DNA from: a virus
Strand: one strand, 5' to 3'
Virus record (IMG/VR): IMGVR_UViG_3300034095_000192
Coordinates: 1-42,693 of that record
Length of the DNA stretch: 42,693 nucleotides
Part shown: piece after piece, positions 3,231 to 37,967 of the stretch
How positions within the stretch are numbered: the first letter of the stretch is position 1
Layout of the letters: each line of letters starts with the position of its first letter
Made by a program: the position numbers and the translations under genes
Notes under the pieces: generated by a model
Database searches by the model: none
What the model saw: the letters and a program-made list of their open reading frames with translations, nothing else
Told to the model about the DNA's origin: nothing

Positions 3231-3231
3231 G

Positions 3232-5436: not shown

Positions 5437-5452
5437 TTTGATTTACTGACTC

Positions 5453-5467: not shown

Positions 5468-5482
5468 TGTAGAGGATAAATA

Positions 5483-7308: not shown

Positions 7309-7317
7309 GAGAAAGAT

Positions 7318-7605: not shown

Positions 7606-7614
7606 GAGACAATG

Positions 7615-9119: not shown

Positions 9120-9139
9120 GTAAAACTAGTTACGCTTGT

Positions 9140-9166
9140 GGGGCGGTACAATCCGCCCCTTTTTTT
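9140..9166 (+). terminator. Factor-independent terminator
   Basis: GGGGCGG (9140-9146), a 6-base loop, CCGCCCC (9153-9159), then seven T residues. The stem is perfect. It closes the transcription unit that ends with the SSB-like gene and lies just upstream of the HNH gene, so the HNH and primase genes need read-through or another promoter. Confidence 0.92.
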
Positions 9167-9187
9167 CCCGTAAAAAAGGTAGATGCC

Positions 9188-12468: not shown

Positions 12469-12474
12469 AAGAGA

Positions 12475-12495
12475 GGGGGCTTTACGCCCCCTTTT
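12475..12495. terminator. Bidirectional terminator between converging transcription units
   Basis: GGGGGC (12475-12480), loop TTTAC, GCCCCC (12486-12491), then TTTT. On the other strand the same stem is followed by a T-rich stretch (TCTCTTTT). It lies in the 27-base gap between the primase stop and the stop of the giant - strand gene, so it can serve both the early and the late unit. Confidence 0.9.
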
Positions 12496-15400: not shown

Positions 15401-18400
15401 ATAACCCCACTTATACTTTTATCTGAAGTCTTAACAAGGCCCAAACCAACTAATGCTTTACCAATATCCTGTGCATCTTTAGTTGGTTTGATTGAATAAG
15501 ACGTACCTTCTTTACGAGCGGTTCGTACTGCAGTTTTAGACTCTCTGCGTAAGGCTTTAACAGCTAGGTGCCTAGCATCAGCTTCAGTTAGTTGTAGCTT
15601 CATACCCAAATGCATACGGGCAAAGTTCCTAACTGCAGATACAATCTTTTTAACGACAGGTAAGTTTGGAGCGTTCTCTACTAGATAAGCAAGTGCCTCA
15701 TGGTGGCGCAAGTGTGTAGGTGTATCTTTAGGAATAGAAGCACGAGCCTTATCAAAAACTTCCCCTACATTGTTCAGGGCTTGGTTTGCAATATCTTTGT
15801 ATACTTTAGACCCAACTAAGTTCTCCATACCTACATGGGTTCCCACCTCATGCAATGCTACGTTCTCTAGAGTCTCAGGCGTTAGCTTGTTAGCTACATA
15901 GTGAGTTACACCTTCAGCAGTAGTTAGCCCTTGCACGTTCGCAGGGTGTTTGCCTTCAGGTAGAGTCTCAGCAGTATCATGCATAACAGCCTTACCAGAT
16001 GCCACTAGGCGTTTCATCTCAGGTGATAAGGTCTTAGACAACGAAGCGGCGGTGTGTTCGGTAAGTTCAGAAGTAGGTGCTACTGATTGGTAATCATGCC
16101 CGCTATAGTCAAAATCACCAAAATCCATTTGTTCAGCTATATCGCTATCGTCCTCAAAATCATACATAGAGTCATCTGATAACGTCTTAGTTGTATCTTC
16201 TACATCTTCCTCTACATCTTCATCTACAACTTTCTTAGTTTTTTTAGCTTTCTTACCCTGCACTTCTAATAACTTTTTAGCTTCAGCTTCTTTGTTTTTC
16301 CTTAATACTTCAGCTGCGTCATCAGCTACGATCTTAGCATCTGCAGCTTCCTTAGCGGCTTTTTTATCAGCAAACCCTTGCACTATCAGTTGGTTCTTCT
16401 CATACTCACCAACTTCACCCTCATCAACAACACCATTTTTAGTCTTTGATTGACCGCGTTCTTTATTATATTCATCTATATAATCTGGATGGTACTTTCT
16501 CCACAAACCAGTTGACGCAGCGTTAAATAATTTGGACGTACTATTACCAAATCCTAGTTTATCAATAACATGAAGAGCCCCTTCCTCAGAAGGTTTTGTT
16601 AACGAGTCATATAATATTTTATTTAGTTCTTTAGAACCGTATTTGCTATTTAATAAGTCTGATAAATTGTTTTCAACTATATTAAAATGAGCTAGTGGGA
16701 CTGGAACCCCTGATTTATTGCGCCCAGTAAAGGTTATACTGCCTTTAACATAATCTACCGATACTTTTCCTTTATTTGCAGTTTCAAGATATAATACCTC
16801 CCCTCTATCTTGTGCATTTATGGCTTTTATATTATAGGTCTGTGCAGGATTATTTGAAGTTATATAAAGACCCCGACCTGCGGTATCTATAGAGGCTTCT
16901 CCTTTATCTGTTGTATGTTCGTAATGCTCAGCATACATCTCATCTCTAGGTATATATGAAACCCCTTCTACACCAACTTCACCCTCATCCTTCTTACCTG
17001 CTTTATCTATTACACTATCAATCCCTTGCTGGTTTATCTGTAGCCCTACACCTATTTTTTGTGCCGTAGGTGTTATAGCCTGTTCTATCTGTTTAGCTAC
17101 TCCTGAATGAGGCATATCTGGGTCTATATCTAAGCCCAGTCTTGTAGCAATATTATATAAAGCATCTATGTTAGTTTGAGAAGGTTCCCTAGTTTTTGAC
17201 TTTCTTATACTTGCATCATACTTATCTAACACAGTTTGTGACGCACTTATTAATGCAGGGGCTACTTCTTCTTTAGCGCCTGTTTCAATAGCTTCGATCC
17301 CTTGTCCTTCTGATTCCATTCCTTTGCCAACTTGGGTGATATCTTCAGCTGCTTGGCTTTCTTGGGATTGTGTGCTGCCATCGCCATTAATCGGGCTTGT
17401 GCTGGGGATTTGCTGGGCATCAGTTGTCTCTCCTAGTGTAGGTGTAGTTTGTCCTTGTTGTATTGCTTCCATGTAGTTCGGTAGTATTTTTGATTGCTCC
17501 TCTGTTATAGTACCTGCTCTTTTAAGTTCTGCAATAACAGGGGCTGTTATCTTTCTAATAGCTTCATGGTCAGCAGGGTTGTTAATATCCAAACCTTTAG
17601 ATGCAATATTTTTATATACTCCACTTTTTTTATGCAGTCCTAGCATATCTGTAACCCAAGTAGGCTCAGTCTTTACAGGCTTTACAGGCTTTTCTTTTTT
17701 CCCTCTTAGTATAGGTTCTTTCACAGCTACTACTGGTGCTCCTGCTACAACTTCTTCCACCCCTGCTACTACTGGTGGGCCACCTGCCGCTGCTTCAGCT
17801 ACACGTGCTCTTTCTTCAGGAGTGATAATTAAAGGATTTACTGGAGGTGCAGGTACTTCGCCTTGAGGGGGTACAGGTATCTCACCTGCTGGAGGGTTTA
17901 CGGGTGGTGGAGGTGGAGGAGGTGCTTGTTCTGTAGTACCTGCTATTTGACTAGCAGTGTTTGCACCACCACCCATGATAGCGCCCATAAGAGCGCCCTT
18001 CACACTTTCATCCTCAACACCGTCTAGTAAACCTTTGGGGTTGTCTGTAGCATAGTTCTGAGCCATTTGTTCTATGGCTGATTGAGGCGCTTCTTGGAAT
18101 ACACCTTCGCCTATCATAGATACTAGGGTAGACCTAAAGAACCCCGGAGTATTAGCAACATCCCCAAACTCTTGCAGTGCCATCTTCCTAGCGTTGCCTG
18201 AGAGAAGTATGTTGGGGTCAATACCCCCTAATGCCGTAGTAAGCTTAGCACCTGCAGCTCCAACTACACCCGTCCCAACTCCTGTAAGTAACGCCGCTTG
18301 GGTGTTTGCTCCTGTTGCTTCGCCTTCTGGGTTGGTAACTCTTAAGTTTTCTTTCTGAGCACCTGCACCTACACCTGCTTCACCTATACCTGCAGCAAAA

Positions 18401-19584
18401 TAAGGAGCAACTGCTGGTACTTTAGTTAAAACTTTACCTAACCCCATTAACCCTGCTTTAGCTATACCTGCACCACCTACCATTTGACCTGCAGACTCAC
18501 CTATAGCTGAAACTACTGCTGAGGGGTTATCTTTAGCGGCTTGTAGGACAGCTCTCCATCCATGAGCTGCAGCTAAGTTCTTAATGGCTTCTTGTTGTTG
18601 AGGAGAGTATTGCGTACTTAAGTACTCTTGCACTTTGTTGAGGTCAAGCCCTGCATCTTCAACGGCCCCCCCTAAATCTCCCGGTGTAAGAAGATCAGCT
18701 AAGCCTATAAAAGATTGACCTAGACCTACACCGCCTTTCATAGCGCCTACACCAATATCTTCCAATACCTTAGTACCACGACCTTCTGTTTCTTTTTTGG
18801 GTAGGGAGAAATCTATAGTAGGGTCTGCTTCTGAGGCTCGTTTAACAGCTTCTTCGTCTGACATATTATCAGGAACCCGTAATGTGCCCCCATTAGCTAA
18901 AGGTACTTCTCTTAGACCAACTGCATCTATACCGTGTGCTCTAGCATCTGCAATAGCTTGCTCTCTAGGCATACCAACAGGAGCATGTAAAGAACCCCCA
19001 TTAGCTAAAGGAATTTCATACATCTCCCCTTTAGGGCCTTCTTGTTCAGGAGGAGGCGCCCCACCTAGTACATTAGATACGTATAATTGTGTTTCTCTAG
19101 GAGTAGCTGATAGCCAGTTGTCCCCTGCTTTTCGTATAGCTTTATTAAGATTGCCTTCACCGTAGTTATAAGCAGCAACAGCCTTAGCCATATCACCGTT
19201 ATAATACTTAACCAAACCTGCCATCTTCTTACCAGCAGCATCAATAGATGCATACGGATCAAGTGCATCAACCCCATACTCTTTAGCAGTAGGAGGCATT
19301 AACTGCATCAAACCAGTAGCACCTGCAGGACTTACGGCATTAGGGTTGTACCTACTTTCATTGTAGCCTATAGTAGATAGTAAGCCTTCTGGTAATCCGT
19401 ATTGACCCTCAGCTTTTAGAAACGCTTCTCCGTATGAGGAGGCGGGACCTTGTTGGGGTTGAGGCATATACTGAGATATGTCCTCTTCAGGAAGTGCTTG
19501 TGTAGGAGTAGCAGGTTGTATTCCAAAAAGGTCTGCGGAAACAGCAGGGTTATAAGCAAAAGGATTTGATTCTGTATTAGCCAT
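12496..19584 (-). CDS. Giant polyvalent virion/ejection protein with lytic transglycosylase domain
   Basis: The product is 2362 residues. Residues about 50-175 are a lytic transglycosylase (YNES with catalytic E76, GLMQLMPPTA at 91-100, AAYNYGEGN at 137-145). Two similar 28-residue units follow (IPLANGGSLHAP, VPLANGGTLRVP). Next come a Gly/Ala-rich hydrophobic stretch (about 280-560) and a proline-rich linker. A region near 875-930 (GRGLYITSNNPAQTY) is weakly ADP-ribosyltransferase-like. An acidic/lysine-rich coiled coil then precedes a zincin-like motif HEVGTH (H1245, E1246, H1250) and an LPD38-like region near 1850 (PVYWYRQLIRDPLM). Such proteins are packaged and injected with DNA. It is the last gene of the late unit. 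Confidence 0.85.
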   Translation of the reverse strand: MANTESNPFAYNPAVSADLFGIQPATPTQALPEEDISQYMPQPQQGPASSYGEAFLKAEGQYGLPEGLLSTIGYNESRYNPNAVSPAGATGLMQLMPPTAKEYGVDALDPYASIDAAGKKMAGLVKYYNGDMAKAVAAYNYGEGNLNKAIRKAGDNWLSATPRETQLYVSNVLGGAPPPEQEGPKGEMYEIPLANGGSLHAPVGMPREQAIADARAHGIDAVGLREVPLANGGTLRVPDNMSDEEAVKRASEADPTIDFSLPKKETEGRGTKVLEDIGVGAMKGGVGLGQSFIGLADLLTPGDLGGAVEDAGLDLNKVQEYLSTQYSPQQQEAIKNLAAAHGWRAVLQAAKDNPSAVVSAIGESAGQMVGGAGIAKAGLMGLGKVLTKVPAVAPYFAAGIGEAGVGAGAQKENLRVTNPEGEATGANTQAALLTGVGTGVVGAAGAKLTTALGGIDPNILLSGNARKMALQEFGDVANTPGFFRSTLVSMIGEGVFQEAPQSAIEQMAQNYATDNPKGLLDGVEDESVKGALMGAIMGGGANTASQIAGTTEQAPPPPPPPVNPPAGEIPVPPQGEVPAPPVNPLIITPEERARVAEAAAGGPPVVAGVEEVVAGAPVVAVKEPILRGKKEKPVKPVKTEPTWVTDMLGLHKKSGVYKNIASKGLDINNPADHEAIRKITAPVIAELKRAGTITEEQSKILPNYMEAIQQGQTTPTLGETTDAQQIPSTSPINGDGSTQSQESQAAEDITQVGKGMESEGQGIEAIETGAKEEVAPALISASQTVLDKYDASIRKSKTREPSQTNIDALYNIATRLGLDIDPDMPHSGVAKQIEQAITPTAQKIGVGLQINQQGIDSVIDKAGKKDEGEVGVEGVSYIPRDEMYAEHYEHTTDKGEASIDTAGRGLYITSNNPAQTYNIKAINAQDRGEVLYLETANKGKVSVDYVKGSITFTGRNKSGVPVPLAHFNIVENNLSDLLNSKYGSKELNKILYDSLTKPSEEGALHVIDKLGFGNSTSKLFNAASTGLWRKYHPDYIDEYNKERGQSKTKNGVVDEGEVGEYEKNQLIVQGFADKKAAKEAADAKIVADDAAEVLRKNKEAEAKKLLEVQGKKAKKTKKVVDEDVEEDVEDTTKTLSDDSMYDFEDDSDIAEQMDFGDFDYSGHDYQSVAPTSELTEHTAASLSKTLSPEMKRLVASGKAVMHDTAETLPEGKHPANVQGLTTAEGVTHYVANKLTPETLENVALHEVGTHVGMENLVGSKVYKDIANQALNNVGEVFDKARASIPKDTPTHLRHHEALAYLVENAPNLPVVKKIVSAVRNFARMHLGMKLQLTEADARHLAVKALRRESKTAVRTARKEGTSYSIKPTKDAQDIGKALVGLGLVKTSDKSISGVIREAVSGFMTGDNIVKLRAGWIDDSAAISRLLKPLDMFDPKGKMRGDFVLQSIGNLSNMLRNSRGYIDTTGDGTLMSVDDPRLDLHNNIKLIDGLGYKDNRKTFFTALRVVAGKEILRIDVERRADAKLYKDFEKVLQGDIDHLTGALVDARRALAAAVTAKDAVQIKDFKSVISIITKEKVALTTRATQLKEASNKLYAKHGKKSAVDVQADIDAKIAKAEKKEALVATTTDKTKRDSLLDQVEKLRNDVDRLTKTLEVGVGTEQRVTPEDIALTEALLIEDPRLGDIMNNIFERLRKDVDLFEKAGIINSTTANDWRSNPAYIPLYKSIEDLSDDPSKYVEVLSLGAKHSWEVKSREGSKQTVNVAENLVKHSALMAGAAAQNIARQTAAMQLNAVADTLFYETKDRSDPQATKFKVNGEDVYYHIGDTLAFEAFQTMIPLQPGWMRKVAKAHANVFRKVTLTTPVYWYRQLIRDPLMANLVTQSGLITPLHALYHMGKIVARRSEGYNELQRRGITGAVDTLTDTTQLVKSIATKRGVSGWLRDFIVHVHEASDAGTRVAVYEKALKLAAKRGIVDPQQRKNFAAMQAKELINFSKKGKSRNHAAMRDSVPFFASTLNGMDTLARAAIPGGYGNLNVKDAATVRKHFYANAAMVTTASILYALQMDDDEEYRKSTDWITSWLIPTGNKDNPFIKIPIHFEAGFLFKVIPEILVRVSRGSLTPKGGRKALWEAFKALSVPPILPQTVKPVGEVLMNHDLYTGNPINSFTESRLPLNQRTAHATPLAEKIAGGLPSFLNMSPNDIEHLGKGWFTEAWALSALLADAYISSVTGVSAPTKELGEKFLWKGVVTAPAKDKALSDYYALAKSAEQIVNGIRAYKQVGDKEEAKALRNEPENEKLRKMAPLLGATGEQIGTMQGRIARIKNTPDTEMSPDEKATRIRVLQEKINKLANRAIKRADEKGVSR

Positions 19585-19627
19585 GCTGCTTCCAGTTAGT
19601 AAATTTATTAGGGGTTATTATATATTA
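19585..19627 (-). promoter_or_regulatory. AT-rich spacer with a possible -10 element
   Basis: This 43-base gap between ejection genes is AT-rich. On the - strand it contains a perfect TATAAT (19617-19622 on the + strand as ATTATA), but no acceptable -35 at 16-18 bases. It also holds the ribosome-binding region of the giant gene (GGAAGCAGC before the ATG). At best it is a weak or extended-type promoter. Confidence 0.2.
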
Positions 19628-21346
19628 CTATTTTTTAGGTTGGTTATAAAAAACTCCAGAATTTCCTACTGGGGCAAAGGGGTTACTAGAACCGCCCCCA
19701 CTAGCACCACCCCTTCCTTTGTATTGATTCATAATTGTCATTAACCCTTGTACTCCCTCTTGTATCTCTTCTGGAGACCCTCCACCTTGCAGTCCACGAC
19801 CATAGATTTCTGCTAGTTTATCCGCTGATAAATTACCTGCTTTAAACGCTGCTTCTTCCATCGTAGACATATTCTTCATTGCTTGTATGGCTTGCGCCTG
19901 TGAAGCTCTAAGCTGTTCTATATTCATAGCCCCCACATTCTTAAGCTTTTCAACGCCGTAATTTCCTCTAATTCCAAGCATTGTCTCTTCTCTTTTAGCC
20001 CTAGCTTCTGCTTCTTTCTCAGCCATCTTAGCTTGTTGACCTATATACGCCTCAGCAGCAGCCCTATGACCTGCAAGATCAGATTTCTTTTGAGCCATTT
20101 GTAGAGCCATTAATTCTTTGTCTGCAGTCCCTTGTTCTTTAGCACCTGATTGATAAGATGAGAGGCCAGACATAAGACCTGCACCTAGAGCTTGGCTCAT
20201 ATACGGAGTTTGAGCAGATAACATACCACCTATACCTCCAACTAATGCACCAAGCCCCTTGTCTCTTCTAGCGTTTGCAGCATTTTCTCTAGCCATACCT
20301 ACTTCTTCAGACATATCAGCTTCAGGACCTAATAACTTCTGGTACTGTGCTATTGATTCTTCTGCTGTAAGATGTGGAGTAGTATCTTTGTTTAACATAG
20401 ACGCCACTACGGCGTCCGCATCATAAGAACTAGGGTTTACAACCCCTTTAGAGAGGTACTTATCTAAGCCTTGGTATGTCTCTCCTTTAGCTGTAGGAGA
20501 AGCGGCATTAGCTTCAGCAGAACTACCCGGTGCAGGAGCAGTATCTTTTTTACTATGGTGAGCTTTAACTTTAGGTTTAGCTTTAGGAGCTACCATATCT
20601 GACAGTCTATAATCATTTTTAGGACTAGTTTGTTCAGTAGGCATACCCATATCAGAAATAGGAGCTTCTAATGTAGGTGCTTCGTACTGACCATAAGGTG
20701 AAGATGGGTCTCCTCCTAAATTAATAGACGGTAGTCCTGCACTAGGTGCTGTATTGGTATAAGCTTTATATTTATCTAAAAGATCAGTACCTGTGTTCTT
20801 AGCTTGTTTTGCAAAGTTATCAAACCACTTCCCTTCATTAGCTATACCATCTTCTTCAGTGGTAGCCGCGTCTTCTACTGCATTTTCGTCCTCTACTAAC
20901 TTAGCTAAACTACCATCTGTACCATCAAAACCTCTAACCTCTCCACCACGAGCTAAAGCAGTTATACCACCTGTTGCTGCCATTTGTTGAGGAGCTTGTT
21001 CAGTATTCTCAGGGGCTACCGCTAGTCCTGCACCAAACATAGGGTTTTGTTGAGCTGTTTGTTGCATAGCCATCTGGTTTTGGCGTACTTGTGGTAAGCC
21101 TTGTGGAGATGTTTGTTGAAACTCTTGTAGCTTCTGTTGCAGTATAGTACCTTGTGGAGCTTGGGGACGAGGCGCTCTAGCTTGTTGTTGGTACTGAACG
21201 CCCATACCTATAGCTAGTAATAGAGGAGAATCTTTTGGTAGCCCTTGTTTAGCCGCCTCTATCTGCTGTGGAGTAGCTGTTTTTGCCCAATCAAAAAGCT
21301 GGTTGTTTTGCTGGCTGTAAGCTTCATTAGTTACTGGAACACTCAT
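19628..21346 (-). CDS. Internal virion / ejection-type protein, Gln/Ala-rich
   Basis: The product is 572 residues. The N-terminal third is rich in Gln, Ala and Pro (QQQARAPRPQAPQ, MAMQQTAQQNPMF). At about residue 123 it has GGITALARGGEVRGFDG, a motif also present in its neighbours. The middle is acidic and disordered, then comes a small hydrophobic patch (LGALVGGIGGMLSAQ). A long helical region (about 400-530; MAEKEAEARAKREETML) and a Gly-rich end (GRGGASGGGSSNPF) follow. Size, composition and place between other ejection genes suggest an internal core protein like those of T7 or P22. No enzymatic motif is seen. Confidence 0.6.
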   Translation of the reverse strand: MSVPVTNEAYSQQNNQLFDWAKTATPQQIEAAKQGLPKDSPLLLAIGMGVQYQQQARAPRPQAPQGTILQQKLQEFQQTSPQGLPQVRQNQMAMQQTAQQNPMFGAGLAVAPENTEQAPQQMAATGGITALARGGEVRGFDGTDGSLAKLVEDENAVEDAATTEEDGIANEGKWFDNFAKQAKNTGTDLLDKYKAYTNTAPSAGLPSINLGGDPSSPYGQYEAPTLEAPISDMGMPTEQTSPKNDYRLSDMVAPKAKPKVKAHHSKKDTAPAPGSSAEANAASPTAKGETYQGLDKYLSKGVVNPSSYDADAVVASMLNKDTTPHLTAEESIAQYQKLLGPEADMSEEVGMARENAANARRDKGLGALVGGIGGMLSAQTPYMSQALGAGLMSGLSSYQSGAKEQGTADKELMALQMAQKKSDLAGHRAAAEAYIGQQAKMAEKEAEARAKREETMLGIRGNYGVEKLKNVGAMNIEQLRASQAQAIQAMKNMSTMEEAAFKAGNLSADKLAEIYGRGLQGGGSPEEIQEGVQGLMTIMNQYKGRGGASGGGSSNPFAPVGNSGVFYNQPKK

Positions 21347-23715
21347 TATTTTTTACCTCTGTTGCTTACTTTACCATTCTTAATTAACCCACCACGAGCC
21401 CATTTGCCGGGCGATCCTGTAGTTGTTGTGGTACCTCCTCCTCCTTGTACATTCTGACCTCCCAAGGTATTAACTACCCCTGCATTAATAGAAGTAGGAG
21501 CATTGAGCCAACTAGCGGCGTTACCTGATTGTGCATCAAGGACACTTTGAGCTAGGTTTTGTCCTGCATTAGCTGCTTGTCCTTGAGCCCCTAAGGTAGC
21601 TAAGTCAGCCGCATTTTGAGCAGAGCCTGTACTTGTTAATCCTGAAGCAACTTGCCCCATACCTTGAAGAGCCCCTATACCCTGTTGATTAGCAGTTAGC
21701 CCCGCTTGTTGATTACCTTGACCCGCGGTTAATTGGTTTTGCGCATAGGCGTTGTTAGCAGTGTTTGCTGCTTGTTGGTTAGCTAAGCTAGCTGTATTCT
21801 GGGCACTAGCTCCAAACTGAGAGGCAATGTTTGCCGCTTGTTGGTTAGATAAGTTAGTCTGTTGTTGATTAGTCGTGTTCATTTGCCCAACATTAAAGTC
21901 CATACCTTGGTTTGCTTGTTGAGCTTGCATCTGCTGTTGAACAAAATTGTTGTTAGATAAGTTTTGAGCAGAGGAGTTGAACTGCAATGCCGCATTTTGA
22001 GCTACTTGATTTTGCTGAGCCGCTGTTAACTGACCCCCGTAATTGTTTTTAGCTGCATCAAGGGCTTGTTGAACGTACTGAGATCGCTGCTGATTAATTG
22101 AAGCTTGGTTTTGTTGGGCTGTTTGTTGAGCAGCACCTAGATTAGCTTGACCTGCTTGTAACCCTAATCCTTGTTCTGCAGAAAATTGACCCATACCTGA
22201 TTGGTACGCTTGTTGTAGTCCTTGAGCTTCAATGTCAGCTAGTTTAGTTGCTTGATTACGTGCAGCTTCAGACCTTTCAATAGCTTGACGAGACCCCCCA
22301 AAGGCATTGGCTGCAGTAGCTTGTTTGTTTAGTTCTTGTAGTTGTTTAGCGTAGTCTCTATTAGACTCCCTTTTTTGGATATCCACTACATTCTGCATGT
22401 AAGGAGACATATAGGCTTCTGATGTACCTTGACCTATCCAAGACTGTGGGCCTTCCATTTGGTTTAAATCAGCTAAAGCCGCTTGATATTCTTGTGCGTT
22501 TATATCAGAAGGCGCCGCCATCATATCAGCTTTGTATTTATCTACACTGGCTTGTTTAGCGGCTATGTCACGTACACTACCCCTATTTAGTTGAGCAGCG
22601 TTGGCGTTAGCGGCTGTATACCCTTGACTTGTAGCCTTAGCTACATCCGCTTTACTAGCCTTAACATCAGTGGGCTTATACTTTGCGGCTGCTCCTAACC
22701 CTGCTGCAGACTTACCATACATATCGGTAGCTGCAGCAAATTGTTCTGGGGTTTTTAAATTAGCCGCTTTATCTAACACCGCTAGTACAGCAGGATCAGT
22801 AGATTTAAGTGTTTTAGGATCGACATTAGCAATTTTCTTCATGGTGTCCATTAGACCATAAGGTGCTTTTCCTGTGGTGGGTTCAATACCTGTGGCTTTA
22901 GTGAACGCAGCGTTAGCAGCATCTTTTTCGGCTTTAGTAGCCCCTTGTTTAATATTAGCTGTGGGGTTTCCTGATGCATCTAGTTTAATAGTTCCCGCCT
23001 TTATCTGACTCTTGTAGGTATTAAAGTTAGATAGCATGGTGTCTTGTGCGGGTGATAGTTTACCTCCTGCATCTACTATCTTTTGATAAGTGGCTGCTTT
23101 CTTCTCTGGTGGCGCTGCTTTCCATGCGGCTATTTCTGGACCATTATACTGCTGCATTAGTGCAGCAGGAGTTGTATTAAGTTGGGTTGAGTACCGTTTT
23201 AAATCAGCAAGGTCTGTATCACTTAGTTGGCGCCCAACTAGGTCCATAACTGTTTGTTGAACAGGGTCTATTGCTCCTCCACTAGCATACCCCCTAAGGC
23301 TCATTATGCCTCCTTGAGCGGCACTTTGCTCAATAGGGGCAGCAACATTAGGATTAGCAGTTGGAGTGTATTGCCCTGTAGCTGGGTCTAACTTATTAAT
23401 ATAACTAGAAGTACTTCCGGGAACGTCAGGGTTCCATGTACCTAAAGAAGCTTGTGCTGCTGGAGTAAGACCTGTTTTATTAATGGCGTTCCATTGTTCC
23501 ATTTGCTCTCTACTAGCATTTAACATACTAGTTGCAGGACCCGGTTGGTCTTTAGTACCTAACATAAGAGCTTGGTAGACAGGGTTTTGCCATGGAGACT
23601 GATTAACCGTAGAAGTGGTTGTAGTGTTTGAAGGCACTGGTGGTGCACCGCCATAGAACCTAGGGCAGATGTAGGTAAAGAATACTTTGTGAAGACTACT
23701 TGGTTTGAATATCAT
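21346..23715 (-). CDS. Internal virion / ejection-type protein, Ala/Gln/Asn-rich
   Basis: The product is 789 residues. It begins with a short hydrophobic segment (MIFKPSSLHKVFFTYICPRF), carries GGIMSLRGYASGGAIDP near residue 137, and has long alanine/glutamine/asparagine-rich helices from about 400 onward (QQAANIASQFGASAQN). It ends with GKWARGGLIKNGKVSNRGKK. The start is fixed by an ATGA overlap with the GNAT-like gene, although the first 20 residues look atypical. The composition resembles internal core proteins that must partly unfold to be ejected. The stop overlaps the next start by one base. Confidence 0.6.
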   Translation of the reverse strand: MIFKPSSLHKVFFTYICPRFYGGAPPVPSNTTTTSTVNQSPWQNPVYQALMLGTKDQPGPATSMLNASREQMEQWNAINKTGLTPAAQASLGTWNPDVPGSTSSYINKLDPATGQYTPTANPNVAAPIEQSAAQGGIMSLRGYASGGAIDPVQQTVMDLVGRQLSDTDLADLKRYSTQLNTTPAALMQQYNGPEIAAWKAAPPEKKAATYQKIVDAGGKLSPAQDTMLSNFNTYKSQIKAGTIKLDASGNPTANIKQGATKAEKDAANAAFTKATGIEPTTGKAPYGLMDTMKKIANVDPKTLKSTDPAVLAVLDKAANLKTPEQFAAATDMYGKSAAGLGAAAKYKPTDVKASKADVAKATSQGYTAANANAAQLNRGSVRDIAAKQASVDKYKADMMAAPSDINAQEYQAALADLNQMEGPQSWIGQGTSEAYMSPYMQNVVDIQKRESNRDYAKQLQELNKQATAANAFGGSRQAIERSEAARNQATKLADIEAQGLQQAYQSGMGQFSAEQGLGLQAGQANLGAAQQTAQQNQASINQQRSQYVQQALDAAKNNYGGQLTAAQQNQVAQNAALQFNSSAQNLSNNNFVQQQMQAQQANQGMDFNVGQMNTTNQQQTNLSNQQAANIASQFGASAQNTASLANQQAANTANNAYAQNQLTAGQGNQQAGLTANQQGIGALQGMGQVASGLTSTGSAQNAADLATLGAQGQAANAGQNLAQSVLDAQSGNAASWLNAPTSINAGVVNTLGGQNVQGGGGTTTTTGSPGKWARGGLIKNGKVSNRGKK

Positions 23716-30708: not shown

Positions 30709-31158
30709 TTAGGCACTTAAAAAAAGATTCATTTCAGCTTTCCGCCTACGTGTTAGACCCGCTAATGACTTACCTTTGGCTTTATCCCAGCGAAGAAACT
30801 GCGGAGCTATTAAGTCGGGTGCAGTTCCTGCATTTAGCATTTTTACCAAAGTGGAAGACGCAAAGTTTCCTTGGCCTATATTATAACACAGGGATATGCA
30901 AGCATCAAATTGACTTTGCTGTATAGGTATAGTAAGCGCCTTGTTAACTGCACTTTCAAAAGTATTTAGATCGTGATGTAGGTACATATCTCCTACAGCT
31001 TCTGTTATTTTGGGGTCTGACAGCTTTACTGCTTTCCCATCAGGGTATCGAGTAGTTCCCCAGCCTATAGTAGGTACACCTGCGGCACAAAGATAAGGCG
31101 CCGCTCTAAAACTTTCAAACTCTTTAATAAGAGCTACACCCTTGCTAGAAACTTCCAT
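30709..31158 (-). CDS. Endolysin, T4-type lysozyme (GH24)
   Basis: The product is 149 residues and hydrolyses peptidoglycan at lysis. The catalytic triad spacing E-8-C-5-T is present (E15, C24, T30, within FESFRAAPYLCAAGVPTIGW), with Cys in the position of T4 Asp20. It is followed by FDACISLCYNIGQGNF and a C-terminal WDKAKGKSLAGLTRRRKAE, all typical of this family. No signal-anchor is seen at the N-terminus, so release should depend on a holin. It starts in a one-base overlap with the Rz stop. Confidence 0.93.
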   Translation of the reverse strand: MEVSSKGVALIKEFESFRAAPYLCAAGVPTIGWGTTRYPDGKAVKLSDPKITEAVGDMYLHHDLNTFESAVNKALTIPIQQSQFDACISLCYNIGQGNFASSTLVKMLNAGTAPDLIAPQFLRWDKAKGKSLAGLTRRRKAEMNLFLSA

Positions 31159-31637
31159 TATCTACTTATCCCACAGTTGCTATCTACCACAAACTTCTGA
31201 CATAGTGCAGCATAGGCTGCTATCTGATCTGCTCTGTAAGCTTCAGACTTGAGAAAGTTTGTAAGTTCGTCTGAAAGTTCGTATCTATCTTCAACGGGGC
31301 TAGTAGTGGTGTTGGTATTATTACCTTTTGTTGCGGTACAACTACTACTTTTCCTGCTGTTGTCGTACATGCGCACAGACTTAAAAGCATCACGCTGGCT
31401 GTTAATAGCATTGATTGTTGATACATTGGCATCCTCCAATTCTTTATTAAGCTTAAGGGCTTCTGTATGTGCCCTATCCGCTTCTTCAGTAAGAGTAGCT
31501 AGTTGTAATTCTGCTTCTCGGTTCATGTCAGCTATACTCTCTGACATTTCTCTAATTTCTGCTTGTGATACTTTATACGCAAAACCGTACCCAGAAGCAA
31601 AACTTGTAACAATAATGGCAACGAATAAGTATGGCAT
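31158..31637 (-). CDS. Rz: Inner-membrane spanin (Rz-like)
   Basis: The product is 159 residues. An N-terminal transmembrane segment (residues 2-20, PYLFVAIIVTSFASGYGFAY) precedes a long periplasmic coiled coil (about 25-95; IADMNREAELQLATLTEEAD). This is the i-spanin architecture that, with Rz1, fuses inner and outer membranes at the last step of lysis. The outer-membrane partner is encoded inside this gene in another frame. It sits between the holin candidate and the endolysin. Confidence 0.85.
   Translation of the reverse strand: MPYLFVAIIVTSFASGYGFAYKVSQAEIREMSESIADMNREAELQLATLTEEADRAHTEALKLNKELEDANVSTINAINSQRDAFKSVRMYDNSRKSSSCTATKGNNTNTTTSPVEDRYELSDELTNFLKSEAYRADQIAAYAALCQKFVVDSNCGISR
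31220..31426 (-). CDS. Rz1: Outer-membrane spanin lipoprotein (Rz1-like), nested in Rz
   Basis: The product is 68 residues and is fully contained in the Rz gene in the +1 frame. The ATG at 31426 (- strand) is chosen because GGAGG (31437-31433) lies 6 bases before it; an ATG two codons upstream abuts the GGAGG too closely. The signal sequence SMLLTASVMLLSLCAC gives a lipobox L17-C18-A19-C20. The mature part has prolines (VVPQQKVIIPTPLLAPL), as in other Rz1 proteins. Start signal, lipobox and location together make this convincing. Confidence 0.85.
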   Translation of the reverse strand: MYQQSMLLTASVMLLSLCACTTTAGKVVVVPQQKVIIPTPLLAPLKIDTNFQTNLQTFSSLKLTEQIR

Positions 31638-31799: not shown

Positions 31800-32246
31800 T
31801 TAGTTAGATGGCGGTACAAAAGCGTCTAGTTCTTGTTGTATAACATCTAACTGGTCTTGCGTAGTAGCAGCGATAATCTGAACATTAATTCTTTCATAAC
31901 GTGTCTGAGCATCTGCAACTACTTGTGCGTTGTAGTGAGTGTTAGGGTTGCCGTCAGTTTCAGTTTGCGCTTCATAAGCTACTACTTGGTTGAACTGACC
32001 TGAGTTTTGACCTTGAAGACCAGATTTACGATCAGCAACTGAAATATCAAATGTTGTCCATACAATTTCGACTGGATCTTTAGTACAATCATAGACTGGA
32101 CCATTTAAGCCTTGTTGGTAAGGTATAGTAGCAGGGATAATCTCAATAGCATTTCTCCAACCATCTTGACCTACTGGCACTGGAGGAGTAGTATCCCAAC
32201 ATTGAGCCATTTCACCATTTACTACTTGTACATATAATTGTGTCAT
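31800..32246 (-). CDS. Tail-fibre-associated hypothetical protein
   Basis: The product is 148 residues. It starts TQLYVQVVNGEMAQCWDT and ends in a helical region (DAQTRYERINVQIIAATT). The opening resembles small proteins encoded downstream of fibre genes, sometimes labelled fibre assembly proteins. It directly follows an RCC1 propeller gene, so a chaperone or accessory role for that fibre is plausible. There is no enzymatic motif. Confidence 0.5.
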   Translation of the reverse strand: MTQLYVQVVNGEMAQCWDTTPPVPVGQDGWRNAIEIIPATIPYQQGLNGPVYDCTKDPVEIVWTTFDISVADRKSGLQGQNSGQFNQVVAYEAQTETDGNPNTHYNAQVVADAQTRYERINVQIIAATTQDQLDVIQQELDAFVPPSN

Positions 32247-32277: not shown

Positions 32278-33498
32278 TTAAGAGAGGGTAGCTAGGGCGA
32301 ACTGATAACCACATGATACATTGGTCCAAGTGGTAAGTGCACCTACCTGTACAGGACTAGAACGATTAGTTATACTGCCTAAACCTAACTGCCCACTAGC
32401 GTTATTTCCCCAAGACCATAGAGTTCCGTCTGTTTTAGTTGCCAAAGCCCATTGGTAATTAGCTTTTATTTCAGACCAAGTTGTAAGTACACCTACTTGT
32501 TTGGGGCTTGAGTAGTTAGTTGTATTGCCTAGACCTAAGCCACCAAAACTATTAATCCCCCATGACCACAGGGTGCCATCTGTTTTAATGACTAGAGTAG
32601 ATGATTCTGCACATGCAATTTTAAGCCAAGTAGTAAGAGCCCCTACTTGTTTGGGGCTTGAGTAGTTAGTTGTATTGCCTAGACCTAACTGCCCCTGAGT
32701 ATTAAAGCCCCAAGACCATAAGGTGCCATCTGTTTTAGTCGCTATAGAATGGTAGAATCCTCCTGCTATGTTTAACCAAGTAGTAAGTGCACCTACTTGT
32801 ACAGGGCTGGAGCGGTTAGTTGTATTTCCTAAACCTAATTGTCCTTCATTATTATTTCCCCAAGACCAGAGAGTGCCGTCTGTTTTAGTTGCTATACTAT
32901 GATTGTTTCCACATGCTATAGTTAACCAATTTGTAAGAGCACCCACTTGATTTGGTGAAGATTTATAAGTGCCAGCACCTGAAGTACCTAAACCTAACTG
33001 TCCACTGTCATTAGACCCCCAAGACCATAGAGTACCATCTGTTTTAGTAGCTAAGACCCCCGCTGGACCTCTAAGAGTTTCTATTTTAGACCAAGTTGTA
33101 AGAGCACCTACTTGCTTAGGGCTTGAGTAGCTGGTGGTATTATTTAATCCTAATTGACCATTACCATTATACCCCCAAGACCAAAGAGTGCCATCTGTTT
33201 TAGTTGCTAGAGAAAATATTTGGGCACCTGCTATTTTAGACCAAGTAGTAAGGGCACCTACTTGCTTAGGGCTTGAGAAGTCAGTTGTATTACCTAGACC
33301 CAACATCCCAAAAACGTTATACCCCCAAGAATAAAGTTTATTAGGTGCTAAATTCCCAGCAGTGGGCCAGTTGCCTTGTTTTATCCAGTATCCCGCTTGC
33401 TCCATTGTCCATACACCTGAAGCAGAACTGTTTTGATACGGCCCAGCTGGTACTACAGGTGAGGATTTTATGACACCACCAGGATACTTAGTTGACAT
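32278..33498 (-). CDS. RCC1-repeat seven-bladed propeller adhesin 1
   Basis: The product is 406 residues. After an N-terminal anchor of about 50 residues (GVWTMEQAGYWIKQGNWPTA) come seven units of about 50 residues on the theme KTDGTLWSWG-xNxxG-QLGLGNTT-SSPxQVGALTTW. The final TTWTNVSCGYQFALATLS should close the ring on the first blade. RCC1-type propellers bind ligands on exposed loops. Here those loops vary while the scaffold hardly does. One blade carries a short insertion (GTSGAGTYKSSP). Its ATG directly follows the stop of the sulfotransferase gene, with no gap. Receptor binding is inferred. Confidence 0.85.
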   Translation of the reverse strand: MSTKYPGGVIKSSPVVPAGPYQNSSASGVWTMEQAGYWIKQGNWPTAGNLAPNKLYSWGYNVFGMLGLGNTTDFSSPKQVGALTTWSKIAGAQIFSLATKTDGTLWSWGYNGNGQLGLNNTTSYSSPKQVGALTTWSKIETLRGPAGVLATKTDGTLWSWGSNDSGQLGLGTSGAGTYKSSPNQVGALTNWLTIACGNNHSIATKTDGTLWSWGNNNEGQLGLGNTTNRSSPVQVGALTTWLNIAGGFYHSIATKTDGTLWSWGFNTQGQLGLGNTTNYSSPKQVGALTTWLKIACAESSTLVIKTDGTLWSWGINSFGGLGLGNTTNYSSPKQVGVLTTWSEIKANYQWALATKTDGTLWSWGNNASGQLGLGSITNRSSPVQVGALTTWTNVSCGYQFALATLS

Positions 33499-35244
33499 TT
33501 ATTTCTCCAATCTTTCTTTAATTAATGCAAATGGTGCATCCCACTCGCCAAAACTTTCTTGTCTTATTAAGGTCATACTGTCGTAGTATGGGGTTGCTTC
33601 GCCCTCTAGTGCATATAGGAAGTATGGCATAATAGGCGTCACCACCCACGTATCAATCCCCATAGCAGACGATAAGTGCGATACACTGGTACATGCCGAT
33701 ATAACCAAATCACAACTTGCTACAGCAGCTCTAGTATCTTCCCAACTATTTAGTGGTACTTGCTTAACCCACATAGGCGTAGCCTCTACACCAGCATCTC
33801 TTTGTAGACTTATAAACTCGTAGTTATCACTCTTAACAGCATCAAACATCAACTGGTAAGGAAAGGCTTTGTGGTGCTCATGTTCAAACTGTGTAGAGCC
33901 TTGCCACCTCAAACCAATACGTTTCTTTCTTCCCTTTATTGTAACAGGTTTAGGTAAATAAGGTGCACCACTAATATCTTCTAATTCAAAGCCTAACGGT
34001 ACTATAGCACTCATACCAGCAACCCAAAAGTCATGGTAGATACCAAACACCGCTTCGTGTTGAATAACGCTAGATACACCCTCTACATTAACGAATAAAG
34101 AAGCTAACTGACCAGAGCAAGCCACGATGACTTTACAGCCCTTCTCAGCGATATACTTAGCATATCTAACTTGGTGTATTTGATCGCCTAGACCGCCTTC
34201 AAGATTTAACAGCACAATCCCTTTAGTCTTGCCATCCCACTGCGGTGTAGGTACATCTGGTTGTTTATTACCAAAGACTCCAGCAATACGACCTCTATCT
34301 AATAACTGATAACCCTTTTGAATCTGACCTTGTCTTAAGAGATACCAACCACGATTATATGCAGCTCTGTTGTTACTTGGCTCTGTAGCCTCTAACTTCT
34401 GCGCTATGCGCCAGCCTTCAGCAAAATCACCTGTAGTAGATGCGGCTAGTTGTAAGTCCAAGTCATGTAAGTCAGGCATAGTCCTAGGCGTCTCTAACCA
34501 AAACTCAGGCTGGCAGAATGAGCCATAATAAGAACCTAATACATCTTTTGGGTTTTCGTTATGCTGTCTTTCAAGAACAGGTTTCACATCGTGCATACCT
34601 TTAGTGCCATGCAACTGCTCATCATCCTCAGCTACAGTAGAACCATCAATAGCATTAAAGTCGTATTCAAAATCAGGTAATTCTAAAAAGGTATGTATAC
34701 GTTGCAGTTGCTCTTTAGGATTAGAAATTAAGTCATCGTATTCAATAAATAAGAAGTTATCCGGTGCCGCTAAGTAACCGTTCTGTAGCGATATGTACGC
34801 AGCCTTTAAGTGATCCATCAACTGCCCAGATTCCATAAACTCATCTAAATCTTCGGGCTTAGCAATACGTACAAACGATGCCGCACAATCAGGTACAGAA
34901 CGAACAGTAGCAATAATCTTTGGTTGATGCCCTAATACTTGAGCCATAGCAGACATAATTTGAGCTATAGGCCAGCCACGTGACTTATCAATTATAACGG
35001 GCTTATCTACATCTTCATAAAAGGCATCAATAGCCCCACGCATAGTTTGAGCTAACTTCTTACGCTCAGGGTCATTTTCATTCAATAAACCCGCAGAATG
35101 CCACACATTCGCCAAACCATCTAGTGCATGAACCAACCCTGATGTAGTAGATACATGGGTGTCCGAATTTTGATTAAGTATAGCTGCAAGTACCGTAGAA
35201 CCTGAACGTGGCACACCTGATAGGAAATGTAGAGTCTTTTTCAT
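33499..35244 (-). CDS. Sulfotransferase-TPR-glycosyltransferase fusion protein
   Basis: The product is 581 residues. Residues 1-250 are a PAPS-dependent sulfotransferase: the 5'-phosphosulfate loop SGVPRSGSTVLAAIL (9-23), and TVRSVPDCAASFVR (113-126), where R115 and S123 fit the 3'-phosphate site. Residues about 262-320 look like one or two TPR helices. From 335 on, QWDGKTKGIVLLNLEGGLGD, KRIGLRWQGS (441-450) and CDLVISACTSVSHLSSAMG (511-529) match a GT-B glycosyltransferase of the GT9/TPR-associated kind. Targets could be virion adhesins or host surface glycan. It lies between two RCC1 adhesin genes and abuts adhesin 1. Confidence 0.85.
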   Translation of the reverse strand: MKKTLHFLSGVPRSGSTVLAAILNQNSDTHVSTTSGLVHALDGLANVWHSAGLLNENDPERKKLAQTMRGAIDAFYEDVDKPVIIDKSRGWPIAQIMSAMAQVLGHQPKIIATVRSVPDCAASFVRIAKPEDLDEFMESGQLMDHLKAAYISLQNGYLAAPDNFLFIEYDDLISNPKEQLQRIHTFLELPDFEYDFNAIDGSTVAEDDEQLHGTKGMHDVKPVLERQHNENPKDVLGSYYGSFCQPEFWLETPRTMPDLHDLDLQLAASTTGDFAEGWRIAQKLEATEPSNNRAAYNRGWYLLRQGQIQKGYQLLDRGRIAGVFGNKQPDVPTPQWDGKTKGIVLLNLEGGLGDQIHQVRYAKYIAEKGCKVIVACSGQLASLFVNVEGVSSVIQHEAVFGIYHDFWVAGMSAIVPLGFELEDISGAPYLPKPVTIKGRKKRIGLRWQGSTQFEHEHHKAFPYQLMFDAVKSDNYEFISLQRDAGVEATPMWVKQVPLNSWEDTRAAVASCDLVISACTSVSHLSSAMGIDTWVVTPIMPYFLYALEGEATPYYDSMTLIRQESFGEWDAPFALIKERLEK

Positions 35245-35296
35245 ATACTGATCTCGTTAGTGTTTTTACAAGGGTATATAGTATACATTAAATTAA
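35245..35296 (-). promoter_or_regulatory. AT-rich gap with possible -10 element upstream of the sulfotransferase gene
   Basis: This is one of the longest gaps in the late region and is strongly AT-rich. On the - strand it contains TATACT (35285-35280), about 35 bases before the ATG. It also contains the imperfect palindrome GTATATAGTATAC (35274-35286). No good -35 is present. It might allow separate expression of the enzyme, but the evidence is thin. Confidence 0.25.
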
Positions 35297-36445
35297 TTAA
35301 GAGAGGATGGCTATGGAGTAGTTATACCCGCTTGCAATTTTAGACCAAGTAGTTAGTGATCCCACTTGTTTAGGACTTGAATAAGCGTATGTAGTATTGC
35401 CTAACCCTAATTGCCCGCTATTATTAAAACCCCAAGACCAAAGAGTACCGTCTGTTTTGGTGACTATATTACTATACCTCCCACAAGATATACTCAACCA
35501 AGTTGTAAGTGCGCCTATTTGTTTAGGGCTAGAGTAGTAAGTCAAGTTGCCAAGACCTAATTGACCTAGATTATTTCTACCCCAAGACCATAACGTACCG
35601 TCTGTTTTAATTGCTAAACCATGTTGAACCCCCCCCGATATCTTAGACCAAGTTGTTAGGGTACCAATTTGGTTAGGTGAGGACCTATAAATTGTATTAC
35701 CTAACCCTAACTGCCCAGCATTGTTCTGCCCCCAAGACCAGAGAGTGCCATCGGTTTTAATAGCAAAGGATAAAGCTCCACCTGTGCCACAAGCAACGCT
35801 AGACCAAGTTGTAAGTGCACCTACTTGTACGGGGCTTGAACGGTTAATTGTATCCCCTATGCCTAATTGTCCAGCATTATTACTCCCCCAAGCCCATAAT
35901 GTACCATCTGTTTTAATGGCTAAATTGTGTTGAATACCGACTGATATTTTAGACCAACTTGTTAATGCCCCTATTTGTTTAGGGGAAGAGTAGTTAGTAA
36001 TGTTACCTAGTCCCAATTCCCCACTAGTATTAATCCCCCACGCCCAGAGAGTGCCATCAGTTTTAATAAGGGTACTGTGTTGGCTACCACATGATATTTT
36101 AGACCAAGTTGTAAGTGCGCCTACTTGTTTTGGGCTTGAGTAGTTGGTTGTGTTTCCTAGACCTAACTGTCCTTGAGCATTAGACCCCCAAGACCAAAGT
36201 GTGCCATCAGATTTAGTAGTTAAAGAAAATTCGCCCCCTCCTGCTATAATAGACCAAGTTGAAGCTCCTACTTGCACGGGGCTTGAACGGTTAGCTGTAT
36301 CACCTAGTCCTAATTGTCCGCTACTGTTCTGCCCCCAAGACCAAAGTCCCGGCAGACCTGTCCAAGTTCCCGCAGCTACGGCTTGCATTTGACTCTGTGG
36401 TGTCCACATGCCTGAATATTGTACGTATGGATAAATTACTGGCAT
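35297..36445 (-). CDS. RCC1-repeat seven-bladed propeller adhesin 2
   Basis: The product is 382 residues. A short anchor (YPYVQYSGMWTPQSQMQAV) is followed by seven blades with WSWG or WAWG cores, ending TTWSKIASGYNYSIAILS, which likely closes the ring. Compared with the other two copies it is more divergent, with IKTDGTLWAWG and GALTSW variants and a blade with an insertion (ACGTGGALSFA). The anchor differs from those of copies 1 and 3, so each copy may attach at its own place on the tail. The function as adhesin is inferred. Confidence 0.83.
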   Translation of the reverse strand: MPVIYPYVQYSGMWTPQSQMQAVAAGTWTGLPGLWSWGQNSSGQLGLGDTANRSSPVQVGASTWSIIAGGGEFSLTTKSDGTLWSWGSNAQGQLGLGNTTNYSSPKQVGALTTWSKISCGSQHSTLIKTDGTLWAWGINTSGELGLGNITNYSSPKQIGALTSWSKISVGIQHNLAIKTDGTLWAWGSNNAGQLGIGDTINRSSPVQVGALTTWSSVACGTGGALSFAIKTDGTLWSWGQNNAGQLGLGNTIYRSSPNQIGTLTTWSKISGGVQHGLAIKTDGTLWSWGRNNLGQLGLGNLTYYSSPKQIGALTTWLSISCGRYSNIVTKTDGTLWSWGFNNSGQLGLGNTTYAYSSPKQVGSLTTWSKIASGYNYSIAILS

Positions 36446-36454
36446 TGTATTTTC

Positions 36455-37585
36455 CTAATATTTGAGGGCTATTGAGAAAGAATCGCCATCTGCCACTTTA
36501 GACCACGTTGTAAGAGCACCAACTTGTTTGGGGCTTGAGTAGTCAGTTGTGTTATTTAAGCCTAACTGCCCACTACTGTTTAAACCCCAAGACCAGAGAG
36601 TACCATCAGTTTTAGTAGCTATGGTGTGGAAGCCTCCACCTGCAATATTTAACCAAGTTGTAAGTGCGCCCACCTGTACAGGACTAGAACGATTAGTTGC
36701 ATTGCCTAGACCTAATTGACCACTAGTATTTTGGCCCCAAGACCACAGAGTTCCGTTTGTTTTAGTTGCTAAAGAAAAGTTACCTCCACCTGCAATAGTA
36801 GACCACGTTGTAAGAGCACCTACTTGTTTTGGGCTTGAGTAGTAAGTTATGTTACCTAAACCTAATTGTCCAACATTATTAATCCCCCAAGACCAGAGTG
36901 TACCATCTGTTTTAGTTGCTATGGTGTGGTACCTTCCACATGCTATATTTAACCAAGTGGTTAATGCGCCTACTTGTACAGGACTAGAACGATTAGTTGC
37001 ATTGCCTAGACCTAATTGACCAGCATTATTTCTACCCCAAGACCACAGAGTTCCGTTTGTTTTAGTTGCTATACTATGAGAGCTCCCACATGCTATATTA
37101 GACCACGTTGTAAGAGCACCTACTTGTACAGGACTTGAACGATCAGTTGTATTGCCTAGGCCTAACTGACCGCTAGAATTAAATCCCCATGACCACAGGG
37201 TGCCATCTGTTTTAGTTGCTATGGTGTGATCCTGCCCAGCTGCTATGTTAAGCCAAGTTGTAAGTGCCCCTACTTGTTTTGGGCTTGAATAGACAGTGGT
37301 ATTGCCTAAGCCTAACTGACCATTGGTGTTTTGACCCCAAGACCAAAGAGTGCCGTCTGTTTTAGTTGCTAGAGTGTGGTTGCCCCCACCTGCAATAGTA
37401 GACCAAGTTGTTAATGCACCTACTTGTTTTGGACTTGAGTAGTAAGTTACATTACCTAGACCTAACTGCCCAAAAACATCATTCCCCCAAGTCCAAAGCT
37501 CATAGGTATAGGCACTGGGTGTAGGGGCAGCCAAAGGGTTAAAGAGTCCTGCTTGTATGAACCCTGCTAAATATCTTTGCGACAT
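36455..37585 (-). CDS. RCC1-repeat seven-bladed propeller adhesin 3
   Basis: The product is 376 residues. The anchor is about 30 residues (MSQRYLAGFIQAGLFNPLAA), then seven blades, the most regular of the three copies. Blades differ mainly at xNxxG and at the loop between the TTW strand and the LATK strand (GGGNHT, AGQDHT, CGSSHS, CGRYHT, GGGFHT, DGDSFS). Two blades two units apart share long identical DNA blocks. It is the first RCC1 gene to be transcribed and follows a small virion protein. Nothing suggests an enzyme; receptor binding is inferred. Confidence 0.85.
   Translation of the reverse strand: MSQRYLAGFIQAGLFNPLAAPTPSAYTYELWTWGNDVFGQLGLGNVTYYSSPKQVGALTTWSTIAGGGNHTLATKTDGTLWSWGQNTNGQLGLGNTTVYSSPKQVGALTTWLNIAAGQDHTIATKTDGTLWSWGFNSSGQLGLGNTTDRSSPVQVGALTTWSNIACGSSHSIATKTNGTLWSWGRNNAGQLGLGNATNRSSPVQVGALTTWLNIACGRYHTIATKTDGTLWSWGINNVGQLGLGNITYYSSPKQVGALTTWSTIAGGGNFSLATKTNGTLWSWGQNTSGQLGLGNATNRSSPVQVGALTTWLNIAGGGFHTIATKTDGTLWSWGLNSSGQLGLNNTTDYSSPKQVGALTTWSKVADGDSFSIALKY
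36675..37127 (-). repeat. Near-identical blade repeats with variable patches, 300 bp apart
   Basis: Three blocks are identical at 300-bp offset: 36675-36722 with 36975-37022 (48 bp), 36735-36771 with 37035-37071 (37 bp) and 36799-36827 with 37099-37127 (29 bp). Between them, 36723-36734 and 36772-36798 differ from their partners at about 20 of 39 positions. The patches encode the xNxxG turn and the loop before the LATK strand. Confidence 0.9.
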
Positions 37586-37595
37586 TTCAGTTTCC

Positions 37596-37967
37596 TTATG
37601 TTATTTCTTCCCAAGAAGCTGTTACCACCAACGCAGTAGCTGTACCAGCAGTAGCACCTATAGACTTATCTTCAAGCAGATAGAACGCTGTAGTCTTGTC
37701 AGTTACGATCAATGAAGCATACGCTGGTACTGAGATAGCTGAAGCTATTGGAAATGCTGTACCACCTAGAGCCGCTGCGCTGTACACGTTGATAGTGATG
37801 TTAGCCGCTGAAGCAGATGTGTTAGCTACGACAATAGAGTCTATTTTATAGACCTTGCTGCTTGCAGCCGCATTACTCGCTACAGAAGTCGCAGCAGTTG
37901 TAGTCAGTGAAGTTGTACTGGTGTTACCATTAATTACGGTAACATTAACTATATTTGGGTTTGCCAT
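37596..37967 (-). CDS. Small virion structural protein
   Basis: The product is 123 residues and beta-rich (VYKIDSIVVANTSASAANIT, then ISVPAYASLIVTDK and ALVVTASWEEIT). I recognise this pattern from structural proteins of aquatic phages, probably an Ig-like or jelly-roll domain. The start is low-complexity Thr/Ser. It lies between a fibre-like gene and the first RCC1 adhesin, suggesting a tail or decoration role. Confidence 0.6.
   Translation of the reverse strand: MANPNIVNVTVINGNTSTTSLTTTAATSVASNAAASSKVYKIDSIVVANTSASAANITINVYSAAALGGTAFPIASAISVPAYASLIVTDKTTAFYLLEDKSIGATAGTATALVVTASWEEIT

Follow-up and report, generated by a model that had tools for sequence, protein, structure and literature searches.

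RCC1 propellers of an environmental phage as probable virion adhesins with interchangeable tips, linked to a sulfotransferase-glycosyltransferase-like enzyme

Why would a phage carry three genes for RCC1 propellers, and what might these proteins do? The question is raised by IMGVR_UViG_3300034095_000192, a 42,693-base IMG/VR virus record that represents a phage known from environmental sequence alone. We refer to this whole record as the window; from 12.5 kb onwards, its long genes are oriented on the minus strand. An earlier inspection of the sequence (hereafter the original prediction) described three RCC1 propellers in a row among fibre genes and suggested that they are tail adhesins. Our analysis points the same way, and we consider it quite probable that the three proteins serve as virion adhesins with interchangeable tips. 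The relevant genes are listed in Table 1.

Table 1. Genes of the RCC1 cassette and at its two ends
Feature	Coordinates	Strand	Product and remarks
123-aa gene	37596..37967	-	Without family match; kept with the cassette, 78-97% aa identity in relatives
Gene A	36455..37585	-	376 aa; 29-aa type-1 anchor (37499-37585) and seven-bladed RCC1 propeller
Gene B	35297..36445	-	382 aa; 33-aa type-2 anchor (36347-36445) and seven-bladed RCC1 propeller
Enzyme gene	33499..35244	-	581 aa; sulfotransferase, ~residues 1-250 (34495-35244), and tentative TPR/GT-B glycosyltransferase-like part, ~251-581
Gene C	32278..33498	-	406 aa; 54-aa anchor (33337-33498) and seven-bladed RCC1 propeller
148-aa gene, other cassette end	31800..32246	-	Without family match; 84-93% aa identity in most cassette relatives

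The gene order departs somewhat from that first described. The three propeller genes are not in a row, because the enzyme gene separates B from C. Their placement among fibre genes is true only loosely: the small genes upstream have no fibre family match, and those downstream are spanin- and endolysin-like. The product of the 123-aa gene is 77% identical to a 'putative lectin' of phage DSL-LC04 (WJZ48129). Within the cassette, genes B and A are each preceded by gaps of 9-10 bases and the enzyme gene by ~50 bases, while the TAA of the enzyme gene abuts the ATG of gene C with no gap at all. Signals for internal promoters (12, with 12.0 expected by chance) and terminators (3, with 4.4 expected) between the cassette genes are no more frequent than chance, which is consistent with a single operon.

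Each of the three proteins carries exactly seven RCC1 repeats, in agreement with the original prediction. The repeats are 49-53 aa in length, most are spaced by 50 residues, and Pfam RCC1 (PF00415) matches seven stretches per protein with E values from 5e-79 to 1e-90, which excludes a chance origin. The blade core reads LWSWG, with the variants LWTWG (blade A1), LWAWG (B3 and B4) and LYSWG (C1), and the RCC1/RLD family signature WG...GQLG accompanies the seven ~50-aa repeats of A, B and C. Structure prediction, which had been proposed as a check on ring closure, yielded a closed seven-bladed ring for gene A. This AlphaFold2 model, made from an alignment with 39 relatives in which B and C are rows, has a mean pLDDT of 92.9, a pTM of 0.88 and 28 strands (7 x 4); pLDDT falls below 50 only at residues 1-23, which are most of the anchor. 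The original prediction noted a C-terminal strand able to close each ring; ring closure is supported by the gene A model, and the B and C rings are predicted to be closed by homology to gene A. Each protein also has its own short N-terminal segment, as anticipated.

When aligned with solved structures by VIA-align, the gene A model matches HERC2 RLD2 with a Z score of 54.4 and an rmsd of 1.5 over 350 residues, and it is also near UVR8 (Z 52) and RCC1 (Z 49), with BLIP-II further off (Z 32). The viral rings therefore have the same fold, blade length and blade number as RCC1/RLD propellers (UVR8, HERC2 RLD and human RCC1; PF00415/PF25390), at ~30% identity, Z 49-54 and rmsd 1.5-2.4. Unlike those proteins, they combine a short anchor with blades that are nearly uniform except at hypervariable positions, and they are without orthology between virus lineages. 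The RCC1 fold alone carries no implication that chromatin/Ran or any other known RCC1 ligand is bound. Viral structure predictions near gene A include uncultured-phage RCC1 proteins, a Littlefix protein named 'Tail fiber protein', a protein of PollyC and the GAP32 'DNA condensation protein'.

The number of blades appears to be strictly maintained among relatives. A search of IMG/VR returned 267 stretches for gene A and 84 for the enzyme, and the best 80 of each were kept. Seven blades are present in 220 of the 223 distinct complete RCC1 open reading frames of these loci and six in the other three, in a sample that is biased by the seven-bladed query but in which adjoining RCC1 genes were counted as well. 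The number of complete RCC1 genes per fetched locus ranges from none or one up to eight. Six loci (L037, L038, L049, L124, L134 and L149) hold seven or eight complete RCC1 genes in a cluster, and many of the N-termini encoded there are short and end in a proline-rich stretch.

If these rings are adhesin tips, their anchors should be able to hold tips of other kinds. Three kinds of N-terminus recur: type 1 (MSxRYxxGxxxxGxFNPL), type 2 (QYSGxWTxxxQxxAVAAGTWP) and a third kind, borne by gene C, in which a type-1-like start is joined to a type-2-like end. A dedicated search covered the gene C anchor; the A and B anchors were sought within loci chosen for RCC1 or the enzyme. Examination of other phages for the anchor on different tips had been recommended at the outset, and for gene C such proteins were found: its anchor begins 27 non-RCC1 proteins, whose tips belong to DUF7483 (21 proteins), Laminin_G_3 (LamG; two), Gly_rich_2 (two) and fn3+Lcl_C (two). 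In phage DSL-LC04, a LamG lectin protein bears the gene C anchor (53% identity). A fused type-1 and type-2 anchor on a single propeller is present in five relatives (L018, L019, L041, L063 and L139), which suggests that A and B together occupy a position that one protein holds elsewhere.

Anchors are slot-specific and, as judged by sequence comparison, mostly conserved, whereas the tips behind them are diverged. The B anchor is 94-100% identical at the amino acid level in five of six relatives and 81% in L009, versus 62-69% for the B propeller. The A and C anchors are 73-97% identical among relatives, with the exception of gene C of L007 (57%), which carries an fn3 insert. The pattern of conserved anchor and diverged tip thus holds except for L007 gene C, and is weaker in L009 and, in L012, for gene A.

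From these features we can propose how the proteins would operate. The short N-terminal anchor would plug each protein into a specific site of the tail or virion, and the ring would present a receptor-binding face formed by the variable loops that follow LWSWG and surround a Gly-x-x-His turn. The ring scaffold would stay fixed, and conserved anchors would receive tips swapped across slots as well as across viruses. A single virion would thereby present up to three different rings, the several alternative rings of the original prediction. The enzyme encoded in the same gene block would modify the adhesins or else the host surface. The location of A, B and C in the virion, the display of several rings on one virion, their binding to receptors, the mode of tip exchange and the substrate of the enzyme are all parts of this model that we infer. 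Tail adhesins, as first suggested, are supported by the closed ring, by the gene C anchor on other tips and by ring divergence behind conserved anchors; replacement-like divergence of this type is the pattern expected of tail adhesins. Two other phages also place RCC1 blades near fibre components. PollyC gp38 has a T7-fibre-like N-terminus (23.1 bits, below the Pfam cut-off of 25.2) joined to RCC1 blades, and in cyanophage S-SRM01 the gene immediately after the one for the long tail fibre distal subunit is of RCC1 type. A place in the virion would also agree with the three RCC1 paralogues detected in virions of E. coli phage W70 (PMC11370258).

The enzyme gene offers a second view of this system. 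Its N-terminal ~250 residues match Pfam Sulfotransfer_3/1, and a profile match to protein-tyrosine sulfotransferase 2 is evident at E 4e-4. The 5'-phosphosulfate-binding motif PRSGST is invariant in 22 enzyme sequences, and a Foldseek match to TPST (E 3e-7) places this half in the sulfotransferase fold. The C-terminal half has no significant Pfam match, including none to glycosyltransferase families, and only weak TPR similarity. With Foldseek, this half resembles TibC (6e-6), WaaC (7e-5) and also OGT, at TMt 0.4-0.55, in a model whose pLDDT of 76 makes the glycosyltransferase likeness tentative. We therefore label it, provisionally, as a TPR and GT-B glycosyltransferase-like region. TibC is a protein glycosyltransferase that modifies a bacterial adhesin.

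Linkage between the enzyme and RCC1 genes is tight, with RCC1 present in 140 of 146 enzyme-bearing loci, a set fetched via RCC1 or the enzyme in which some loci overlap on the same contig. RCC1 neighbours are absent around four distant relatives of the enzyme, indicating that the enzyme is not strictly bound to the rings. In S-SRM01 and the marine virus AG-345-E08, the sulfotransferase and TPR-GT-like parts are likewise encoded near RCC1 genes, but as separate genes, and in BUCT-ZZ01 the C-terminal half adjoins an RCC1 gene. The linkage, together with split halves near RCC1 genes in two unrelated phages, suggests that rings or host surface are chemically decorated, and the enzyme probably modifies either the adhesins or the host surface. 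It is quite possible, though somewhat less likely than not, that host surface polysaccharide is altered (for example, to block re-adsorption) and the rings are left untouched. The likeness of the C-terminal half to WaaC, an LPS heptosyltransferase, and the four loci without RCC1 would fit such a role, but the half is at least as close to the protein glycosyltransferase TibC and the N-terminal half is closest to protein-tyrosine sulfotransferases. The 140 of 146 loci and the enzyme stop codon directly before the gene C ATG, within the same gene block, also favour a connection to the rings. A more specific proposal, which we rate as rather doubtful, is that the enzyme places sulfate and/or sugar on the phage's own RCC1 rings, such that recognition depends on hypervariable loops plus a phage-made modification. 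If true, the modified rings would constitute a system of post-translationally modified phage adhesins.

Two further observations concern the enzyme and its surroundings. S-SRM01 (8638-21468) and AG-345-E08 (917-12265) have RCC1 genes interleaved with genes for 2OG-Fe(II) oxygenase-like, sulfotransferase and glycosyltransferase-like or sugar-nucleotide proteins (loci L214 and L213, respectively), and these mixed stretches are possible adhesin or glycan modification islands. Enzyme matches occur in only two MAG contigs (L216 and L217), too few to name a host.

Comparison with close relatives reveals how differently the rings and their surroundings evolve. Relative to L007, flanking virion genes are 92-100% identical at the amino acid level (dS 0.20-0.33) and the enzyme is 97% identical (dS 0.35), versus 69-73% for ring genes A, B and C (dS 0.91-1.20). 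In L010 and L015, upstream genes are only 45-55% identical, yet the enzyme is 97-98% and the 37596-37967 gene 89-97% identical, so the cassette has apparently been passed from one virus lineage to another. The enzyme is 95-98% identical in close cassettes, unlike the rings. This same level of identity across viruses in which some upstream genes are only ~50% identical is an observation in its own right, and the enzyme seems to have spread horizontally.

The propellers are without orthology between viruses, according to sequence comparison. Among seven three-slot genomes, propeller nucleotide identity is 69.5% for the same slot, 68.9% for different slots and 70.5% for paralogues within a genome, with no significant difference among these values. 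This signal is not simply saturated, since codons at identical residues mismatch at frequencies of 0.447, 0.460 and 0.460 in the rings, below the 0.60 of randomly drawn codons (enzyme, 0.172). The simplest reading would be a shared pool of ring domains swapped behind conserved anchors. Alternatively, rings may turn over fast in place through conversion among blades. Blade numbers are not orthologous between rings either, and blade identity is 62.3% within a gene, 61-62% within a locus and 59% between contigs. Gene A has a higher-order period of 300 bp. We rejected the idea that most of the variation arises from active shuffling of blades, because adjacent near-identical blades that appear recent occur in two genes only (L021 b4/b5, 96%; L154 b5/b6, 97%). 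Within-gene blade pairs of at least 90% identity number four among 220 genes.

Variation within the blades is concentrated at particular positions. Variability across 1,540 blades is highest at columns 6, 8, 9, 19, 34, 37 and 39-43, and the elements LWxWG, GQLG, SSP, QVG, TW and TDGT are mostly invariant. Mean variability is 1.88 bits in the variable loops (columns 6-19 and 38-40) and 0.74 bits in the conserved loops (26-31 and 47-50), with column classes for face assignment chosen after the data were seen. Variable and conserved loops alternate in predicted strand order, and alternate loops of an antiparallel meander sit on one face. Loop variability would thus be located on one face of the ring, an assignment based on strand order rather than coordinates; strand columns 33-37 and 41-43 vary too. 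Variable columns are rich in Asn, Tyr and Ser.

Positive selection on the rings was considered and set aside, because pairwise dN/dS at hypervariable columns is 0.42 (with dS near saturation) and 0.29 in the seven closest pairs, and never exceeds 1. General family scans detected no reverse transcriptase among the window genes they covered, and synonymous divergence of the rings is high as well, unlike the outcome of adenine-directed mutagenesis by a diversity-generating retroelement. Ratios no greater than 1 at variable columns would also be expected if the rings were non-adhesive surface decorations or spacers that vary through weak constraint on an outer face, or through escape from defence, rather than as receptor binders. 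Some relatives with at least seven complete RCC1 genes in a cluster, seemingly beyond the needs of a tail, could be explained in this way. The strict seven-blade architecture, variability limited to few columns per blade and a gene C anchor common to lectin-type tips speak against it, and we judge this explanation to be improbable.

RCC1 proteins are more common in phages than was implied by the original prediction, which associated them chiefly with eukaryotes and with a small number of bacterial proteins. Jumbo coliphages, including phAPEC6, carry multi-copy RCC1-like genes (PMC7247149), three adjacent RCC1 paralogues (gp237-239) were detected by mass spectrometry in virions of E. coli phage W70 (PMC11370258), and GAP32 gp1 is an RCC1-like virion protein, also found by mass spectrometry (PMC5259590). 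Like W70, phAPEC6 and S-SRM01, the phage described here has multiple copies; GAP32 and BUCT-ZZ01 also encode RCC1-like proteins. Matches in the phage collection that was searched fall below 60% identity. The jumbo-phage and W70 papers lean towards a role in condensing or packaging DNA, an analogy drawn from the name of eukaryotic RCC1 (PMC7247149, PMC11370258, PMC5259590). Proteins that organise or condense packaged DNA in the head, a function proposed for phAPEC6 and cited in the W70 work, could account for multiple copies in jumbo phages, virion detection in W70 and GAP32 (PMC7247149, PMC11370258, PMC5259590) and the mildly basic propellers (pI 9.4, charge +7 to +9), but this role is very improbable given that in other phages the gene C anchor bears tips of the LamG lectin, Gly-rich, fn3+Lcl_C and DUF7483 kinds, that the rings are far more diverged than adjoining virion genes and without orthology, which is unexpected for a DNA packaging protein, and that the variable positions are rich in Asn, Tyr and Ser rather than basic residues. 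PHROG assigns RCC1 to 'DNA, RNA and nucleotide metabolism', a name-based label that was given no weight as evidence.

Returning to virion adhesins, other phages provide partial parallels. Pseudomonas phage PollyC gp38 shares RCC1 blades, but it is one long fibre-like protein of 867 aa with a T7-fibre-type N-terminus and degenerate blades (three by the blade model), and not a short-anchored ring. A propeller as a receptor-binding protein domain is known for phi11 gp45 and has been put forward for PRD1 P2 and phiKZ gp131C (PMC4901313). As described there, the phi11 and PRD1 propellers differ in being five-bladed, that of phiKZ is a peripheral seven-bladed baseplate domain, and none is called RCC1-type in the passages concerned (PMC4901313). 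A 'BNR repeat' protein of BUCT-ZZ01 (L215, 5707-7809) has 14 RCC1 blades, and two rings per chain are possible.

In the open-licence literature searched, we found no earlier statement of an adhesin role for RCC1 in connection with tail, tail fiber or receptor-binding, nor any description of exchangeable RCC1 adhesin rings coupled to a modifying enzyme. RCC1 paralogues in phage virions are already known; what appears to be new is the evidence that they are swappable adhesins, together with the enzyme partner. Phage RCC1 proteins are common, and both annotation and several papers give them labels such as 'DNA condensation'. An adhesin-tip role, at least in this lineage, would re-annotate many environmental phages and supply a marker of host range. 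A fixed ring with ~eight variable positions per blade would be a natural repeat scaffold with a varying binding face, and the linked sulfotransferase-glycosyltransferase-like enzyme makes adhesin modification directly testable.

Three other minus-strand genes of the window deserve mention. Within the spanin-like gene at 31158-31637, a 70-aa open reading frame in another frame (31220-31432) starts with MPMYQQSMLLTASVMLLSLCACTTT and has a lipobox-like stretch, making it a candidate Rz1 nested in Rz. The 148-aa protein encoded at 25185-25631 matches the PHROG 'short tail fiber protein' (E 1e-28), a label that may be misleading, as its sequence reads as a small cupin-type protein. Finally, the 2362-aa protein encoded at 12496-19584 has a transglycosylase region near its N-terminus, weakly matches virion RNA polymerase and DarB-like proteins, and is a probable internal virion protein.
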